Shown: in pieces, positions 21,942-30,264 of the stretch
Numbering within the stretch: the stretch's first letter is position 1
How the letters are laid out: each line of letters starts with the position of its first letter
NCBI RefSeq assembly: GCF_030818695.1
Contig: NZ_JAUTAR010000001.1
Location: forward strand, 3,404,501 to 3,468,500
Length of the DNA stretch: 64,000 bases
Direction of reading: 5' to 3'
Source of the DNA: Chryseobacterium sp. SORGH_AS_0447
GTDB taxonomy: Bacteria; Bacteroidota; Bacteroidia; Flavobacteriales; Weeksellaceae
The notes under the pieces: generated by a model
The model's input: only the letters and a program-made list of their open reading frames with translations
Database searches by the model: none
Told to the model about the DNA's origin: nothing
Position numbers and translations under genes: made by a program

Positions 21942-22745
21942 ATGATGAGAAAAACATTTTTACTTGCCGGCACCCTTTTACTTTCAGTTTCTTCACAGGC
22001 ACAGATCTTCGACGCCATTAAAACGGCGGTGAAAGACAAAACAGGCATTGACCTGAACCAGCCTAAAACGACCACGACTAACCCCTATCCTGCTGCTTCG
22101 GGATCTGCCAATGCTTCGGTGAATCTGGGAAGCCTCAGCTCCTTACAGATTTCATCCGGGCTGAAAGAAGCGTTAAGCCTGGGTGTGAATGAAGGCGTAA
22201 AAAAACTGGGCGTGACCGATGGATTCTTTCGAAACGAAGCTGTAAAAATCCTGATGCCTGAAAAGCTGAGAAAAATTGATGCGACCCTGCGTTCCGTCGG
22301 GCTGGGAAGTTTAGCCGACCAGGGCGTTAAGCTGCTTAACCGTGCTGCGGAAGATGCCGTAACGGAAGCCGCCCCGATTTTTACCAATGCCATTACTTCA
22401 ATGACGATTACCGATGCCAAAAACATTCTTTTGGGAAGCGATAATGCGGCAACCAATTACCTTCAAGGGAAAACCCAGAGCCAGCTTTTCGCAGCCTTTC
22501 AGCCGAAAGTAAAAGCTTCTTTAGGGAAAGTAGGCGCCGATAAAGTGTGGTCTAACCTGATTTCGAAGTACAATACTTTCACCGGACAATCGGTAACCAC
22601 CGACCTGAATGCCTATGTAACGACCGAAACCATCAATGGGGTCTTCAAAATGGTTGCGGAAAAAGAAAGCGGTATCCGGAATACGCCTGCGATGAGAACG
22701 ACCAGCATCCTGAAAAAGGTTTTCGGAGCACAGGACGGACGTTGA
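21942..22745 (+). CDS. DUF4197 family exported protein
   Basis: A 267-residue protein with a signal peptide (MMRKTFLLAGTLLLSVSSQAQ), a Pro/Thr/Ser-rich linker (about residues 40-58), then an alpha-helical domain with GLKEALSLGVNEGVKKLG, KILMPEKLRKIDATLRSVG and FTNAITSMTITDAKNILLG, the typical DUF4197 pattern. The function of the family is unknown, and the protein is probably periplasmic. It is the only plus-strand gene in this region, convergent with the histidine kinase gene and divergent from the GH20 gene. Confidence 0.88.
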   Translation: MMRKTFLLAGTLLLSVSSQAQIFDAIKTAVKDKTGIDLNQPKTTTTNPYPAASGSANASVNLGSLSSLQISSGLKEALSLGVNEGVKKLGVTDGFFRNEAVKILMPEKLRKIDATLRSVGLGSLADQGVKLLNRAAEDAVTEAAPIFTNAITSMTITDAKNILLGSDNAATNYLQGKTQSQLFAAFQPKVKASLGKVGADKVWSNLISKYNTFTGQSVTTDLNAYVTTETINGVFKMVAEKESGIRNTPAMRTTSILKKVFGAQDGR

Positions 22746-22818: not shown

Positions 22819-24120
22819 TTACGTTTTATCAAATTCCAAACTCACTGAGAATCTTCTTTCAAAAGAATCAAGCGAAAGTCGGGCGTTGTTTTTTTCACTT
22901 AAAATAGCCGAGATCCAAAGTCCTAGGCCGAAGCCGTCTTTATGGAAGGTATCACGCAGGAACTGGCCTTTCAGCTTTTCGGGATTTTCGATGGTCTGGC
23001 TGATGGCATTGGAAATCACAAGGCCTTTTTTCTCATGCTGGAAAATTTTGATGTCAATTACCGTATCGGGTTTGGTATATTTCACGGCATTCGACAGCAG
23101 ATTTTTAATGATAACTTCCACCTGGTTTCTGTCGGCAGTTACTGTAAAATCGCCGTCTACCGGTGAAAATTCAATTCTGAACCGCTGTTGGTTAAGAGTC
23201 ACCTGTTTCATAAAGCCTTCCGAAAGTTCCAGAACCATTTCGGCCAGCTCTATTTCAGATTTGTTGGTCCGCAGGTTTCCGGATTCGATCTGGCTCATCC
23301 ACAGGAAATTATCTACCAATGCCTGCATGCGTTTTACTTCCTGCTCCTGGTTATCCAACAGTTTTCGGGTATCTGTATCAGGCGATCCTCCGTTGAAAAC
23401 CTGTAACTCGGTAAGCATATTGCTGAGGGGCGTCCGCAATTCGTGGGAAGCCATCGTAAAGAAAGTTGTCTGCTGTTTTACCTGCTCATCAATCCGCATC
23501 AGCATCCGGTTCAGTGCATCAGTAAGATGGTAAAATTCGTCTCTGGTCTGCGGTTGAGAAAGCAGGGTGATGTGTTCCAAATCTACCTTGTTGGCATTAT
23601 GGATGATCCGGCGGAGCGGTCTGAGAAAAAAACCGGAAAGCAGATAACCACCCAGAAAAGAGACTAAAAATGCAACCGGAAGATAGATGTACAGCAATCT
23701 CCGCAATTTCTGAATCCCGGAATGGTAGCTCTCTGCCGACAGTGCAAAATCCACCGAAATACGGCCGCCGTTTTCGGGATATTTTTTTACGGAAATCATC
23801 CGCCATTTTTCTTTATTATTGACATCTTTCGGAAGATTACTGATCAGCTGGGTTTGCTTCACGTTATTGTCGTACATAATCCTGTAAAATTCTCCACTTT
23901 TGGGTAACGGAACAGAGATCGGATCGATGTCGGTTTTCTGAAGAACAGTATTGGCCGCAGACGATAGCTGTAGTGAGAAACTCCGGTCGAGTTCTGTCTT
24001 GGCATTTTTATACAGTGAATAGACGATGAAGCTGACGCAGAGAAAAAGCAGCGAATTGAACAGCAGCCCGAAACGAAACCGCAAGCCCTGATAAAAAAAA
24101 GAGGTCGGCTGGCTTTTCAT
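22819..24120 (-). CDS. Sensor histidine kinase (HAMP, HisKA, HATPase_c)
   Basis: A 433-residue inner-membrane kinase. Membrane helices lie at about 17-37 and 143-165, flanking a roughly 105-residue sensor region, then HAMP, the phosphoacceptor His226 in MASHELRTPLSNML, the N box with Asn344 (NLLSNAVKYTK) and the G box DGFGLGLWIS (395-404). It follows the OmpR-type regulator by 20 nt, and two exported repeat proteins precede both in the same operon. The stimulus is unknown. The operon layout (small exported proteins, regulator, kinase) suggests those proteins take part in sensing or are outputs of the pathway. Confidence 0.94.
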   Translation of the reverse strand: MKSQPTSFFYQGLRFRFGLLFNSLLFLCVSFIVYSLYKNAKTELDRSFSLQLSSAANTVLQKTDIDPISVPLPKSGEFYRIMYDNNVKQTQLISNLPKDVNNKEKWRMISVKKYPENGGRISVDFALSAESYHSGIQKLRRLLYIYLPVAFLVSFLGGYLLSGFFLRPLRRIIHNANKVDLEHITLLSQPQTRDEFYHLTDALNRMLMRIDEQVKQQTTFFTMASHELRTPLSNMLTELQVFNGGSPDTDTRKLLDNQEQEVKRMQALVDNFLWMSQIESGNLRTNKSEIELAEMVLELSEGFMKQVTLNQQRFRIEFSPVDGDFTVTADRNQVEVIIKNLLSNAVKYTKPDTVIDIKIFQHEKKGLVISNAISQTIENPEKLKGQFLRDTFHKDGFGLGLWISAILSEKNNARLSLDSFERRFSVSLEFDKT

Positions 24121-24140
24121 ACGTTATTGTTTTTCACCTT

Positions 24141-24806
24141 TCAGCATATAATATAGCCCGCTCCTATCACTGTTTTGATAAGCTGTTTTTCAAATCCTTT
24201 GTCAATTTTTTTCCTGAGCTGGTGCATGTAGACTTCAACGATATTGCTTTCAGGATCGAAGCTGATATTCCAGGCATTTTCCAGAATCTGGTTTTTTGTG
24301 AGGACAAGATTGGCATTTCTTACAAGATATTCCAGCAGTACAAACTCTTTGGACGTCAGTTCTATTTCGGTATTTCCCCTCTTCACTTTCCGGGAAGGAA
24401 TATCGATCTCAAGATCCTCAATATTGATTTTCTGCTGGCCATTGGAGCCTGAAAAACGGCTTACAGTACGGATTCTGGCGAGCAGTTCTTCCCATTCAAA
24501 AGGTTTTCTGATGTAATCCACGGCCCCGAGATCCAGCCCCTGCACCACCTGTTTGGAATCTGCAATCGCACTGATAATGATTACCGGTGTTTCCGCACCG
24601 AAAGTCTTCAGATTCTTAAGAAAGTCAAAACCATTAATTCCCGGCAGCATCAGATCCAGAAGAATCAGGTCAAAATCATTTTTGATCGCCATTTCCAGTG
24701 CTTCCGCCCCATCATTACAGACTTCTGTCTGATGGCCTGCCTGCGAAAGTCCCTGCTGTATAAAGCCAGCCAGTTTCTTTTCGTCTTCAGCAATTAGTAC
24801 CTTCAT
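24141..24806 (-). CDS. OmpR/PhoB-family response regulator
   Basis: 221 residues. The receiver domain carries acidic Glu7/Asp8/Glu9, phosphoacceptor Asp51 (ILLDLMLPG) and the conserved Lys in YIRKPFEWEEL. The C-terminal winged helix (from about residue 125) contains ELTSKEFVLLEYLVRN and SNIVEVYMHQLRKKID, typical of DNA-binding OmpR proteins. It starts 2 nt after the stop of the lipoprotein gene and is followed by the kinase gene after 20 nt, so all are on one transcript. Probable targets include its own operon, though no direct-repeat box was identified. Confidence 0.95.
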   Translation of the reverse strand: MKVLIAEDEKKLAGFIQQGLSQAGHQTEVCNDGAEALEMAIKNDFDLILLDLMLPGINGFDFLKNLKTFGAETPVIIISAIADSKQVVQGLDLGAVDYIRKPFEWEELLARIRTVSRFSGSNGQQKINIEDLEIDIPSRKVKRGNTEIELTSKEFVLLEYLVRNANLVLTKNQILENAWNISFDPESNIVEVYMHQLRKKIDKGFEKQLIKTVIGAGYIIC

Positions 24807-24808
24807 AA

Positions 24809-25474
24809 TCAGTGTATTTTATAGACAATACTGTCAATTTTAATGTCCTTCATCTTCACCGGCGGAAACCGGAAGGTATTGATCGTACCGTCCTTTTTAT
24901 CACGTTCCAAAGCGGTGACTTCTACCTGCTTAGTCTTCATCAATAATGGTGCTAATGTCCGGCTTTCTTCAGGATTCAGCATGACTGTCTTGTTGCCGAT
25001 TACAAATCCGGCTGTGTCATTTTTACTGTTTCTGACCCATCCGGAAATTTCTCCTGTAATCCGTATTTCTCTTCCGGGATTGGGTTTTGGAGGCAGAATA
25101 CCCTGTGTATCGAAAATCTTTTTCCCATCTTCTGAAGAAATGGAGATCAGCTCATTGCCACGTTTTCTCCAGGAGGTTTTGAGGTGAACATAAGCATTAA
25201 TTTTTGCAATTTCCAGAATAGGTTTGGCCAGATGAGGCGGAAAATGAATTTCAGATTTCTGTTTTCCCTGATTCAGGATGATCTTATCGATATTGCTTTC
25301 AGGATTGGTTTCATAGCCTGCCACTCTGCCATTCAACAGCATGGGTTTTTCAATTTCCGAAGGCGGAACGGGCGGTGGTAATGGCGGTTTCTTCCCACAA
25401 CCGGAAAGGCAGAAAACGGCTGAAAAAATAAAAGTTATTTTCGATAGATAATATGTTGTATGTTTAAAAACCAT
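24809..25474 (-). CDS. Lipoprotein with two FPPHL-type repeat domains, unknown function
   Basis: 221 residues. A lipoprotein signal ends at LSGCGKK (Cys26), followed by a proline-rich linker PPLPPPVPPSE. Two domains of about 75 residues follow: one from LLNGRVAGYE with the motif HFPPHLAKPILE, the second from ITGEISGWVRN with TAGFVIGNKTVMLNPEE and a trailing FRFPPVKM. The layout (G-x-V/I strand, a variable loop, a strand with xxhPPHh, a helix, a closing strand) matches the domains of the next gene upstream (25545-26240) and resembles bacterial OB-fold proteins. The family was not recognised. Its stop is 2 nt before the response regulator start. Confidence 0.75.
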   Translation of the reverse strand: MVFKHTTYYLSKITFIFSAVFCLSGCGKKPPLPPPVPPSEIEKPMLLNGRVAGYETNPESNIDKIILNQGKQKSEIHFPPHLAKPILEIAKINAYVHLKTSWRKRGNELISISSEDGKKIFDTQGILPPKPNPGREIRITGEISGWVRNSKNDTAGFVIGNKTVMLNPEESRTLAPLLMKTKQVEVTALERDKKDGTINTFRFPPVKMKDIKIDSIVYKIH

Positions 25475-25544
25475 TGTGTTATAATCAAAAACCTGAGCAA
25501 ATTACAAAAATCTGCCCAAGTTTTACTGGTGTTTCAATTACCTG

Positions 25545-26240
25545 TTAAAGTGAATATTCTTTACCGTTTACGCTGATGGTTTTAGCGCGTACGATGTCGA
25601 ATTTTCTCTCTGCCACTTCACCGGAATTGTCCGGCTTTTTGAAGCCTGTGAAAGAGATTTTCGTCCCTTTTACCAATGACTGTCCCAACTGCTGATAGAT
25701 GTGAGGCGGCATTTTGAGTAGGGTATTATCAACAAAGATACCAACTACGGCGTCGCCCTCCTTATTTTTCTGCAGGTCTGTAATGGTTCCGCTTTCGCTT
25801 ACAGAAACTTCCTGAGGCGGCGCCTGAGGAGCAGCCGGTGGTGTATCTTCAACTGTTTTTCCATTGGCTGTAATGCTGTTTATATGAAACGACTTTTCGC
25901 CATTGGGCGCCACGTCCTCAAAACCTTTGATGCTGATCTGGCTTCCCTGCTTGGCAAGTGCCGTAATCTGACTTCCCAGATGCGGCGGAAATTTTACGAG
26001 AACTGATCCTCCGTTGCTGTTGAGATAAAATCCGTCATACACAAAATCATCATTGGTTTTCAGTTTGGAAACGGTGCCGGAGATCGTGGTGATTTCTTTG
26101 AGTGCTTGGGGTCCCGGTTTTTCCATTCCCGGACGAGGATCTTTCGGGGGAACCGGAGTCTGAGCGTTTACCACTACAGCAGTCATTAAAAATACAGCGG
26201 CCGCTATTTTTTTTCCTTGGTCTAAAACATTGTTGTTCAT
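25545..26240 (-). CDS. Exported protein with two FPPHL-type (OB-fold-like) repeats, unknown function
   Basis: From the ATG at 26240, 231 residues with a signal peptide (MNNNVLDQGKKIAAAVFLM, cut near VNAQ). An ATG 8 codons upstream is also possible. Two domains are separated by a proline/alanine-rich linker (DTPPAAPQAPPQEVS): ITTISGTVSKLKTNDDFVYD with LVKFPPHLGSQITALAKQG, and ESGTITDLQKNKEGDAVVG with LLKMPPHIYQQLGQSLVKG. Each ends in a strand like SFHINSITANGKTVE. This is a paralogue of the downstream lipoprotein. The fold resembles BOF/OB domains, but this is a visual inference. It is first in the operon that ends in the two-component pair. Confidence 0.75.
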   Translation of the reverse strand: MNNNVLDQGKKIAAAVFLMTAVVVNAQTPVPPKDPRPGMEKPGPQALKEITTISGTVSKLKTNDDFVYDGFYLNSNGGSVLVKFPPHLGSQITALAKQGSQISIKGFEDVAPNGEKSFHINSITANGKTVEDTPPAAPQAPPQEVSVSESGTITDLQKNKEGDAVVGIFVDNTLLKMPPHIYQQLGQSLVKGTKISFTGFKKPDNSGEVAERKFDIVRAKTISVNGKEYSL

Positions 26241-26473
26241 CTTATTAAATTTTAAATTATACATTTTGATTGATTTTCTGAAACAAATGTATCATGACTT
26301 TATTAAGATGATATGAGGATGAAATTAATTTTTTTTAATGTTCAAGAAAATATTTTAAAAATTTTCTGAGAAATCAATTTATTCAAGGTTTTTTTAATTT
26401 CTTCAGTATTTGCCCAAGCTGTTCTTGACCTACGCTTATTCCAGAATTTCGTTATGAACTGGGTGGACAGAAC

Positions 26474-26558: not shown

Positions 26559-27212
26559 CTAAAACTGCATTTCAGGAACTTCACCGTCGATAATTAGGTC
26601 GGCTTCCGTAGATTTTACGATGTGTTCTACAGAAACGCCCGGTGCTCTTTCAACAAGTTTGAAACCTGCCGGCGTAACATCCAATACGGCTAATTCGGTG
26701 ACTACCCTTTTTACACAGTTTACACCGGTTAGAGGGAGTGTACATTTTTTAAGGATTTTGCTTTCTCCTGCTTTGTTAACGTGCATCATGGCGACGATAA
26801 TATTTTCGGCAGAAGCAACAAGATCCATCGCACCACCCATTCCTTTTACCATTTTGCCCGGGATCTTCCAGTTGGCAATATCTCCGTTTTCCGCCACTTC
26901 CATCGCTCCGAGAATCGTCAGATCCACCTTCTGGGCACGGATCATCCCAAAACTAAAGGCGGAATCGAAGAAGGAACCTCCGTCGAGAATTGTGATCGTC
27001 TGCTTTCCGGCGTTGATGATGTCCGCATCTTCTTCCCCTTCAAAAGGAAACGGCCCCATTCCCAAAACCCCGTTTTCACTCTGGAATTCCACGGAGAGGT
27101 TGTCCGGTACGTAGTTCGCCACCAATGTAGGGATTCCGATTCCCAGGTTTACATAATATCCGTCTTTTACTTCTCTGGAAATTCTCTGTGCAATTTGTTC
27201 TTTAGTCAGCAT
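26559..27212 (-). CDS. scoB: 3-oxoacid CoA-transferase subunit B
   Basis: 217 residues, normal length for a beta subunit. It carries NLGIGIPTLVANYVP, the catalytic glutamate Glu46 in FQSENGVLGMGPFP (E-x-G motif), and GGSFFDSAFSFGMIRAQKVDLT. With subunit A it moves CoA from succinyl-CoA to acetoacetate or another 3-oxoacid. The partner gene scoA is on the same strand but 2.35 kb upstream, cut off by an inverted ABC exporter and its own terminator, so each subunit must be transcribed separately. That is unusual, since the pair normally overlaps or abuts. Confidence 0.93.
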   Translation of the reverse strand: MLTKEQIAQRISREVKDGYYVNLGIGIPTLVANYVPDNLSVEFQSENGVLGMGPFPFEGEEDADIINAGKQTITILDGGSFFDSAFSFGMIRAQKVDLTILGAMEVAENGDIANWKIPGKMVKGMGGAMDLVASAENIIVAMMHVNKAGESKILKKCTLPLTGVNCVKRVVTELAVLDVTPAGFKLVERAPGVSVEHIVKSTEADLIIDGEVPEMQF

Positions 27213-27333: not shown

Positions 27334-29130
27334 ATGAAAGTTCTCTTACATTACCTGAAACCTTATCGTTTCCTGATCATCATATCCCTTTTCTTAGCCG
27401 CTGTAAACCAGGTTTTTTCGCTGTTTGCTCCTGCTATTACGGGAAACATCCTGGATAAACTGGTTACCCATCCCAATTTTTTTGATAAGGAAAAAACCAT
27501 TCCCAGAAACCTGAATGAATACCTGTATGGAAATGATATTTACCACGGAGTATTTTATTTTTTGGGCCTCTTGGTGGGCACTGCGATGATAAGCCGTATT
27601 GCTAAAGCCTTCCAGGATTATGTAGTGAATGTAATTATCCAGAAGTTCGGCGCTAAAATTTTCACCGACGGATTAAGACACTCCATGCGGCTGCCCTATC
27701 AGGAGTTTGAGGACCAGCGGAGCGGAGAAACACTTTCGATTTTAACGAAGGTCCGTGAAGATACCGTGAAATTCATCAATAATTTCATCAATATCTTTTT
27801 CGGGATTTTGGTGAGCATTATTTTCGTTTCGGTGTATGCGATCCGCCTGCACTGGTCGATTATGCCGGTGTATGTCGTGGGCATTATTTTTATTGCCGTT
27901 GTTACCAATCTGTTAAGCAGGAGGATTAAAACCATCCAGAAAAGCATTGTAAAGGAAACAACCGATCTGGCAGGAAGCACCACGGAAAGCCTCAGGAATA
28001 TTGAGATTGTCAAAAGTTTAGGGCTTACGAACCAGGAAGTGGAGCGGCTGAACAACAATACCTATAAAATCCTGAGTCTGGAGCTGAGAAAAGTAAAAAG
28101 CATCCGGTCTTTGAGTTTTGTTCAGGGTACTTTGGTGAACTTTTTACAGCAGATGATCACCTTTACCCTTTTGCTGCTGATTTTTAAAAACGTGGTTACT
28201 CCCGGCCAATATCTGTCGCTAATGTTTTACGGGTTCTTTATTTTCGGGCCGATGCAGGAGATCGGGAATATCATTATTTCCTACCGTGAAGCGCAGGCTT
28301 CGCTGAATAATTTCGACCGCGTGATGAAAAAAGAAGTGGAGCCCAAACCTTTGACTCCAAAAAAAATCGGTGCCATCGAAGAACTGGAATTCCGGAAGGT
28401 TTCATTTCAGCATCAGACGGCTCAGTATAAAGCACTCAATTCGATCTCATTTGATGTGAAGAACGGAGAAACCATTGCTTTTGTGGGACCGAGCGGTTCC
28501 GGAAAAAGTACACTGGTAAAGCTGCTTGTAGGTTTGTACCGGCCACAGGAAGGCGCTATTTTTTACAACCAGGTGGATGGTAAAGAGTTCGATTTTGATG
28601 AACTGAGAAACCAGATCGGATTTGTAACACAGGATACCCAGCTTTTTGCCGGAACCATCAAAGAAAACCTTTTGTTTGTGAATCCGTCGGCTACCGAAGA
28701 AGATTTAAAGATGGCTTTAAAGAAATCCAGTTGTACGACTCTTCTGGAGCGTGCCGAAAACGGTATTGAAACGGTAATTGGAGAAGGCGGACTGAAGCTG
28801 AGCGGCGGGGAAAAACAACGGATTGCCATTGCCCGTGCTTTATTAAGGAAACCGCACCTGCTGATCTTTGATGAAGCCACTTCTGCGCTGGACAGCATTA
28901 CCGAAGAAGAAATTACGACAACCATTAAAGAGATTTCGAAAGAAAAAGAACAAATTACGGTGCTTATTGCCCACCGTTTAAGCACCATCATGCATGCCGA
29001 CCGGATTTATGTGCTGGAACGCGGGCAGATTGTGGAAACCGGTTCGCACCTCGGCCTCATCGAAGAGAAAGGGCTGTATTATGCGATGTGGAGGCAGCAG
29101 ATTGGGGAAAGGAAGACGATGGGAGTTTAG
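27334..29130 (+). CDS. ABC exporter, fused permease and ATPase (MsbA/MdlB-like)
   Basis: 598 residues. An N-terminal type I exporter membrane domain has six helices (about residues 12-310). The ATPase carries Walker A GPSGSGKST (about 386-394), the Q-loop at FVTQDTQLFAGT, the signature LSGGEKQRIA, Walker B LLIFDEATSALD and the switch His in IAHRLST. It works as a homodimer or with a half-transporter partner. Substrate could be lipid, drug or peptide and is not evident. It lies on the opposite strand between the two CoA-transferase subunit genes. A possible -7 box TAAATTTG lies at 27307-27314, without a clear -33 box. Confidence 0.93.
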   Translation: MKVLLHYLKPYRFLIIISLFLAAVNQVFSLFAPAITGNILDKLVTHPNFFDKEKTIPRNLNEYLYGNDIYHGVFYFLGLLVGTAMISRIAKAFQDYVVNVIIQKFGAKIFTDGLRHSMRLPYQEFEDQRSGETLSILTKVREDTVKFINNFINIFFGILVSIIFVSVYAIRLHWSIMPVYVVGIIFIAVVTNLLSRRIKTIQKSIVKETTDLAGSTTESLRNIEIVKSLGLTNQEVERLNNNTYKILSLELRKVKSIRSLSFVQGTLVNFLQQMITFTLLLLIFKNVVTPGQYLSLMFYGFFIFGPMQEIGNIIISYREAQASLNNFDRVMKKEVEPKPLTPKKIGAIEELEFRKVSFQHQTAQYKALNSISFDVKNGETIAFVGPSGSGKSTLVKLLVGLYRPQEGAIFYNQVDGKEFDFDELRNQIGFVTQDTQLFAGTIKENLLFVNPSATEEDLKMALKKSSCTTLLERAENGIETVIGEGGLKLSGGEKQRIAIARALLRKPHLLIFDEATSALDSITEEEITTTIKEISKEKEQITVLIAHRLSTIMHADRIYVLERGQIVETGSHLGLIEEKGLYYAMWRQQIGERKTMGV

Positions 29131-29562: not shown

Positions 29563-30264
29563 TTAATCTCTTTTTCTTACTGTTCTCTGTTCGATTCTTT
29601 TTTCAAATTTTTCACCCTGGAAAATCCGCTGGATCATAATGCCCGGAATATGAATCTGATTCGGGTCCAGTTCGCCCGGCTCTACCAACTCCTCTACTTC
29701 GACAATGGTGATCTTTCCGGCTCCGGCCATCGGATGGTTGAAGTTTCTTGCGGATCCTTTGAAAACAAGGTTTCCGGCATGGTCGCCTTTCCAGGCTTTT
29801 ACAATAGCGAAATCGGCTTCATAAGCAAATTCCAGGATGTGCGGTTTTCCTTTGAAATCTTTTACTTCCTTTCCTTCCGCCACTTCAGTCCCGAAACCTG
29901 CCGGTGTGTAAAAAGCAGGAATTCCCGCCTGTGCCGCCCTGCATTTTTCCGCCAGTGTTCCCTGAGGCGTCAGTTCCACTTCCAGTTCACCGGAAAGCAT
30001 CTGTCTTTCAAACTCGGCATTTTCTCCTACATAAGATGAAATCATTTTCTTGATTTGTCTTTTATGAAGCAGCAGCCCCAGTCCGAAATCATCCACTCCG
30101 GCGTTGTTTGAAATGCAGGTAAGATCTTTTACATCACTTTCTACCAAAGCATTAATTGAATTTTCAGGAATTCCGCAAAGGCCGAAACCGCCCAGCATTA
30201 ATGTCATCCCGTCTTTAATCCCTTCAATGGCTTCCTTTGCATTTTTTACTCTTTTGTCTATCAT
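29563..30264 (-). CDS. scoA: 3-oxoacid CoA-transferase subunit A
   Basis: 233 residues of normal alpha-subunit length. [18 protein letters not shown] is the CoA-binding glycine-rich stretch. [30 protein letters not shown] and [25 protein letters not shown] are strongly conserved in SCOT-type and AtoD-like subunits. It pairs with the B subunit at 26559-27212. The two together let the cell interconvert acetoacetate and acetoacetyl-CoA for ketone or branched-chain degradation. It has its own terminator, consistent with a split operon. Confidence 0.93.

Follow-up and report, generated by a model that had tools for sequence, protein, structure and literature searches.

Predicted Tandem OB-Fold Proteins Encoded with a Two-Component System in Chryseobacterium and in Distant Bacterial Groups: A Candidate Stress-Response Module

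The Four-Gene Locus

The window analyzed here is a stretch of 64,000 nt of Chryseobacterium sp. SORGH_AS_0447 (NZ_JAUTAR010000001.1, positions 3,404,501–3,468,500; genome of 4.37 Mb), and all feature coordinates are given in its numbering. On its minus strand lie four co-directional genes, in the order P1, P2, RR, and HK, which code for two proteins with predicted export signals, a response regulator (RR), and a histidine kinase (HK). The gaps between them are 70, 2, and 20 nt, and these as well as the gene positions agree with the original prediction. The recurrence of this gene set, often with transporters, in distant groups suggests an undescribed stress-response module, and no paper describing it was found among the matches listed in searches of an open-license PMC library.

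P1 (25545..26240, minus strand) codes for a protein of 231 aa, the start of which is uncertain because there is a second in-frame ATG 24 nt upstream, at 26264. P2 (24809..25474, minus strand) codes for 221 aa. As had been suspected, neither belongs to a Pfam or NCBIfam family, P2 matching only a lipobox model below its threshold. The RR (24141..24806, minus strand) is of the OmpR type, with a receiver and a winged-helix output domain (Pfam Response_reg, 7e-29; Trans_reg_C, 2.6e-24). The HK (22819..24120, minus strand) is a membrane HisKA kinase with a short periplasmic region and with HAMP, HisKA, and HATPase domains (Pfam HisKA, 8.4e-14; HATPase_c, 1.6e-7; HAMP, 1.3e-6).

Export, Paralogy, and Domain Repeat

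Both P1 and P2 are predicted to be exported, one of them as a lipoprotein, which bears out the earlier proposal. The signal peptide of P1 ends in ...VNAQ, with A26 and Q27 invariant in 18/18 rows of the alignment (A1), and P2 has the lipobox LSGC, with C26 invariant in all 20 rows (A2). In the distant P2-like proteins of Niabella, Chitinophaga, and Xanthocytophaga, an N-terminal helix, seen by eye, is the apparent anchor instead of a lipobox. By sequence similarity P1 and P2 are paralogs (BLASTP, 2e-12), P2 being the second match of P1 in the whole genome (E = 4.1e-11). No further credible copy of either is present in the 4.37-Mb genome; a third gene of this kind was rejected, the match at E = 0.085 not being credible.

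Each of the two proteins consists of two homologous domains. Those of P1 span residues 49–132 (25845..26096) and 145–231 (25548..25808), and those of P2 residues 43–124 (25103..25348) and 134–221 (24812..25075), all on the minus strand. When the four domain profiles were compared with hhalign, without the rows common to the P1 and P2 alignments, five of the six pairs gave probabilities of 97.4–99.3 (99.25 for the two domains of P1), and the two domains of P2 gave 76. Reversed-profile controls, done before the shared rows were removed, reached at most 3.04; the comparison of whole-protein profiles is inflated by 7 shared rows. The motif (F/M)PPH(L/I), after which we speak of FPPHL proteins, had been expected in both domains of each protein. 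It is found in three of the four: as FPPH at residues 84–87 in P1 domain 1, as MPPH in P1 domain 2, and as FPPH at residues 78–81 in P2 domain 1, where D63 is invariant. P2 domain 2 has no PPH motif and has LNPEE at that place, which corrects the original prediction on this point.

Predicted Fold and Family Relationships

The domains are predicted to be oligonucleotide/oligosaccharide-binding (OB) folds, a fold given by the predicted models of P1 and P2 (mean pLDDT 84.4 and 86.6) and by their structural matches; an OB-like character had been proposed before, and at the level of prediction it holds. In the P1 model, the FPPH of domain 1 lies between strand 3 and the helix, and domain 2 has the same order of elements. 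Structure comparison ranks SSB, PriB, RecO, and telomere or RPA proteins highest. Among 56 P1-type members, the tRNA_anti-codon OB profile has matches in 13 at E 0.1 (best 2.1e-5). A precomputed PF01336 label is carried by two relatives, P0079 and P0081, which came from a scoring of the 7998 candidates sharing most words, not from a census.

No sequence kinship was found with YgiW and the BOF family, to which the original prediction had drawn a parallel. P1 and P2 share with BOF proteins an OB fold and export, judging from the predicted fold and the signal sequences in the translations. The BOF profile is not among the Pfam matches of the 56 members (E 0.1) or of P1 and P2 themselves (E 1), and hhalign with Escherichia coli YgiW gives a probability of 1.3, and below 0.4 per domain. 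Kinship is therefore rejected at the sequence level; BOF proteins are likewise absent from the structural matches listed, but this does not speak against a common fold. DUF5666 (PF18914), also named earlier, gives only sub-threshold matches, in 2/56 members at E 0.1 (best 0.0023, 18.6 bits, for a cut-off of 27 bits) and none for P1 and P2 at E 1. Membership in it is rejected, and the window genome has no DUF5666 match. One UniRef entry close to P1, however, has a name beginning with “DUF56.” In the excerpts of PMC13255231 and PMC10714799, DUF5666 is named merely in lists, and an excerpt of PMC10710014 merely lists a BOF-family COG in a Chryseobacterium. An OB fold like that of CusF/SilF is predicted for P1 and P2 as well, and the CusF profile is not among the matches of the 56 members (E 0.1) or of P1 and P2 (E 1).

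Distribution and Association with Two-Component Systems

Scanning one genome per species, we found 26 loci, which lie in Chryseobacterium and its relatives, Niabella, Chitinophaga, Dysgonomonas, Xanthocytophaga, Spirosoma, Schlesneria (Planctomycetota), Rhizonema/Scytonema/Nostoc (Cyanobacteria), and Nitrospira. In addition, FPPHL genes are present on 18 plasmid records, several of megabase size, from Caballeronia, Paraburkholderia, Burkholderia, Bradyrhizobium, Methylocystis, and Acidiphilium. Another Chryseobacterium with the operon is C. luteum DSM 18605 (L023). The occurrence is patchy, with FPPHL genes in 10/173 genomes of the window's genus and 6/395 of the phylum sample. Neighborhoods were analyzed with a single script over 53 fetched loci (numbered L; genomes are numbered G), among which those from related strains are not independent. 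RR and HK genes are present in 23 of the 26 scan loci, in all nine further Bacteroidota loci taken from whole genomes (L056–L064), and in 15 of the 18 plasmid loci, over five phyla; a check for homologs occurring mostly away from two-component genes thus turned up nothing against the association. Of the three exceptions in the scan, L019 and L038 are clipped contigs, and L030 is a true orphan. The plasmid misses (L071, L115, and L116) are lone leaderless FPPHL genes in three Caballeronia replicons, each flanked by genes for a GntR regulator and an amidohydrolase and lacking a two-component system. There are 15 RR-like matches in the whole window genome, and chance adjacency to an RR is roughly estimated at no more than a few percent. 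Its recurrence in other phyla takes the arrangement far beyond chance, and the link of FPPHL proteins with two-component systems is real.

The class of the regulator differs between phyla. It is of the OmpR type in Bacteroidota and, by match, in Planctomycetota, and of the sigma-54 NtrC type in Nitrospira (Pfam), in the annotated Pseudomonadota records, and in Cyanobacteria (by match to these). The original prediction had stressed that a soluble form is paired with an anchored one, and such pairs recur in some other Bacteroidota. They are not seen in Spirosoma and Dysgonomonas, which have a single copy, nor in Burkholderiales and Bradyrhizobium, where an exported paralog is accompanied by a second one that is leaderless (by eye). 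In three cyanobacterial loci (L039, L041, and L043), the protein is longer, with the tandem OB part at its C-terminal end, a soluble region at the N terminus, and an apparent single membrane span (by eye). The fullest cluster, in Paraburkholderia sp. D15, contains HK, NtrC-type RR, exported FPPHL, leaderless FPPHL, metallophosphoesterase, MFS, “arsenic transporter,” DMT, and CHASE3 genes. Within the Pseudomonadota clusters, the metallophosphoesterase recurs in L112, L113, and L114, and a short CHASE3 protein in L067, L069, and L112.

In a phylogenetic tree, 22 FPPHL-linked RRs form one group (support 94/90) apart from 8 RR paralogs of the window genome, chosen among its 14 other RR-like matches. 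Within this group, the window RR clusters with those of Chitinophagaceae (100/100), and two loci of the window's own family cluster with Dysgonomonas (86/83), a pattern that fits horizontal transfer. The RR and HK do not reach the cut-offs of the curated heavy-metal (Czc/Sil/Cop) subfamilies (229.1 of 279.2 bits for TIGR01387 and 131.1 of 292.55 bits for TIGR01386). The sensor region of the HK contains the stretch DIDP..PLP. Its proline is conserved in 17 of the 18 linked kinases that were aligned, a set that leaves out those of L036, L037, L059, L060, and L064.

A Conserved Box Upstream of P1

The regions upstream of P1 in the ten P1-bearing Chryseobacterium genomes all have about 60 bp in common, with an outer border that is sharp to the eye. 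This stretch contains, in order, an A-rich run, the pattern ATTAAT-N5-YTCAT-N5-CTTAA, in which, by eye, 5 or 6 nt precede the third half-site, and TACATTTG. In the window, the conserved box, a presumed RR site, is TTAAAAAAAATTAATTTCATCCTCATATCATCTTAA (26303..26338, minus strand), with the core ATTAAT-N5-CCTCAT-N5-CTTAA. The candidate -7 element TACATTTG (26284..26291, minus strand), kept in 10/10 of these upstream regions, fits TAnnTTTG, the consensus of this element in Bacteroidota.

A weight matrix derived solely from the 10 Chryseobacterium sites was applied to 19 loci from other genera; L038, where the contig begins at that place, was excluded. In 15 of the 19, the top site of the whole locus lies at most 250 bp upstream of the first gene and on the right strand. 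For two of these (L026 and L027), the start of a same-direction upstream open reading frame was used, chosen after the site had been seen, and without both the count is 13/17; L028 is counted as rank 1 despite a weak score of -5.0 (shuffles, -10.9 ± 6.0). The matrix failed in L029 (rank 2), in the orphan L030, and in both Planctomycetota loci, L036 and L037. In the window genome, a pattern search finds one exact site, the one upstream of P1, none at one or two mismatches, and three at three mismatches. The box is also present upstream of DMT_6 in L059 and L060. The simplest reading is that it is the site at which the RR would bind, so that the system would regulate itself and act mainly on P1 and P2, and its conservation upstream of P1 favors P1 and P2 as outputs of the RR rather than sensors feeding the kinase.

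Transporters and Neighboring Genes

At least one of MFS, CitMHS/ArsB-like, and DMT_6 genes (identified with Pfam for examples) is present in 14/26 scan loci, 4/9 further Bacteroidota loci, and 14/18 plasmid loci. In the four linked CitMHS/ArsB-like transporters tested, the Pfam CitMHS and ArsB models are both above their cut-offs; the NCBIfam ArsB cut-off is not reached in the two tested (at best 181.7 of 457 bits). No DMT_6 match exists in the window genome. The apparent passages on DUF486 in the excerpts of PMC11968277 concern DUF4867.

Among 173 congeners, MFS is present in 12, P1 in 10, and both in 9 (hypergeometric P = 7e-12, a value that ignores kinship), and in all 12 with MFS a CitMHS/ArsB-like gene, recognized by the look of its translation, adjoins it. 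In an rpsA tree of 30 genomes, comprising all 10 with P1 and 20 of the 163 without, the P1 pattern needs six changes, three of them forced by well-supported branches; the overlap of P1 and MFS is therefore not that of one clade. Downstream sequence was fetched for nine congeners with P1, and only one of them (L058, in genome G285) has transporters directly 3′ of HK. In this locus, P1 (L058:6001-6696) is broken by an in-frame TGA, and the frames of P2, RR, HK, MFS, and CitMHS/ArsB are open.

A shared box at the unlinked MFS–CitMHS/ArsB pair was rejected after testing 12 MFS upstream regions and those MFS–CitMHS/ArsB gaps that were long enough. Six Chryseobacterium genomes (L073 and L077–L081) have a palindrome-like stretch upstream of the unlinked MFS (AATATGATCCTGATCATATT in some, by eye), pointing to what may be a different regulator; in the window genome, the MFS upstream region lies near G000:C1:2268000.

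Around the operon, a gene for a DUF4197 protein (Pfam, 4.3e-75; 21942–22745) converges on the end of the HK gene. On the other side are two CoA-transferase-like genes on the minus strand (26559–27212, by Pfam, and 29563–30264, by the look of the translation), and between them is an ABC-exporter-like gene on the plus strand (27334–29130, also by look).

Discussion

We consider it somewhat probable that these genes form a mobile cross-phylum envelope-stress module in which P1 and P2 are the main direct outputs of their own RR and HK and exporters remove the same compound. The HK would sense a periplasmic signal, and the RR would then bind the ATTAAT-N5-YTCAT box beside the promoter and turn on P1-P2-RR-HK, that is, positive autoregulation. 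On the envelope side, the soluble exported P1 and the lipid-anchored P2 would bind or buffer the stress ligand, the conserved Phe-Pro-Pro-His corner in the first barrel being a possible contact site; they may also feed back on the HK. The exporters found with the module (MFS, CitMHS/ArsB-like, and DMT_6) would remove the same compound, possibly a toxic small anion or metalloid. According to excerpts of PMC5636140 and PMC2653508, VCA0732 and YgiW are a precedent for an OB-fold protein activated by a two-component system.

Several observations weigh against this interpretation. In the window genome, the MFS–CitMHS/ArsB pair (G000:C1:2265211-2267863) is about 1.16 Mb away from the operon and has no convincing box, the lone weak site (score 2.0) before the CitMHS/ArsB gene not being conserved; control of these transporters by this RR is therefore not supported there. 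Many clusters have no linked transporter, including those of Dysgonomonas and of eight among the nine P1-bearing congeners whose downstream sequence was fetched, and P1 and MFS each also occur without the other (P1 alone in G244, MFS alone in G275, G289, and G310). The PPH motif is absent from P2 domain 2 and from several other second domains, and the Asp beside it is invariant in alignment A7 but, in the P1 alignment A6, does not belong to the columns conserved at 90%. The PDB matches are mostly nucleic-acid-binding OB folds, a shared fold shows no function, and the P2 model has no Foldseek match reaching 0.001. Finally, the support of the RR group is just below the mark of 95 set by the tool, which warns of long branches.

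If P1 and P2 acted instead as upstream sensors, their ligand-loaded or free forms would contact the periplasmic region of the HK and set its activity, and control of P1 by the RR would make a feedback loop. Their constant co-inheritance with kinases even where the class of HK and RR differs between phyla speaks for a sensor or feedback role, as do the joint presence of a soluble and an anchored form in several Bacteroidota and the stretch kept in the kinase sensor region. We nevertheless find this role unlikely: the box marks P1 as a target, no kinase pair adjoins the orphan L030 or any of the three lone copies of Caballeronia, and one paralog in Burkholderiales and Bradyrhizobium, having by eye no signal peptide, could not meet a periplasmic sensor domain. 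It is improbable that P1 and P2 shield the envelope through binding to a component of the cell wall or to a lipid, as reported for VisP/YgiW, with the transporters being a separate cargo. The general layout, an OB protein with an OmpR-type pair, is alike, and excerpts of PMC5636140 report that Salmonella VisP binds peptidoglycan and that the BOF protein VCA0732 of Vibrio cholerae is a target of the VC1639 kinase; they also report that mutation of vca0732 did not raise polymyxin sensitivity. Besides the missing sequence kinship with YgiW, this explanation leaves aside the three recurrent transporter families and the phyletic link of MFS and P1, and leaderless copies could not reach the wall. 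Binding of nucleic acid, as in the most similar solved OB folds and as the tRNA_anti-codon matches might suggest, is very improbable, since such matches follow from the fold itself, the signal peptide and lipobox put P1 and P2 outside the cytoplasm, and no repair or replication gene recurs in the clusters.

By analogy, the module may work like QseBC-YgiW or Cus/CusF, yet by profile it has no BOF, DUF5666, or CusF member. QseBC-YgiW (PreAB in Salmonella, VC1639-VCA0732 in V. cholerae) likewise combines, according to excerpts of PMC2653508 and PMC5636140, an OmpR-type RR, an HK, and an exported OB-fold protein. It differs in that E. coli ygiW is divergent from qseBC, that YgiW has 130 aa and no profile similarity to P1 or P2, and that the annotation of the retrieved E. 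coli stretch includes no gene for MFS, CitMHS/ArsB, or DMT_6. Cus/Sil copper-silver efflux has the OB-fold chaperones CusF/SilF, and CusF-type chaperones have a metal site of Met, His, and Trp. It differs from the module, in which RR and HK stay below the curated heavy-metal cut-offs, P1 and P2 have tandem domains and no CusF profile, and the exporters are others. The ZraPSR and AioXSR systems, made of an HK, a sigma-54 NtrC-type RR, and an exported accessory protein, resemble in layout the versions of Pseudomonadota, Nitrospirota, and Cyanobacteria, which have an HK, an NtrC-type RR, and an accessory protein; ZraP and AioX have folds other than OB, which sets them apart from P1 and P2. Arsenic-resistance operons, whose MFS and ArsB transporters are discussed in excerpts of PMC4435449, are similar in that MFS and CitMHS/ArsB-like genes recur beside FPPHL genes. 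Unlike in these operons, no ArsR, ArsC, or ArsA is named in 13 annotated plasmid loci (the PLSDB gene tables being incomplete), and ArsB is far below its cut-off.

More tentatively, and with a probability that we would place a little short of even, this may be a horizontally moving sense-and-export module of at least five phyla, in which tandem OB proteins of a new family are the constant core that binds the toxic compound and ties sensing to export, the regulator class being swapped and the OB proteins and transporters kept. The plasmid records come mostly from soil, plant, lichen, and insect isolates, so the inducer is probably a common environmental compound. With this module, a protein family whose members P1 and P2 match no Pfam or NCBIfam model would gain a context, a predicted fold, and a candidate promoter switch, and the DMT_6/DUF486 and CitMHS/ArsB-like transporter families would be tied to one signaling module. 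It would also be a clean case in which an accessory protein and exporters are kept and the class of the regulator is exchanged.

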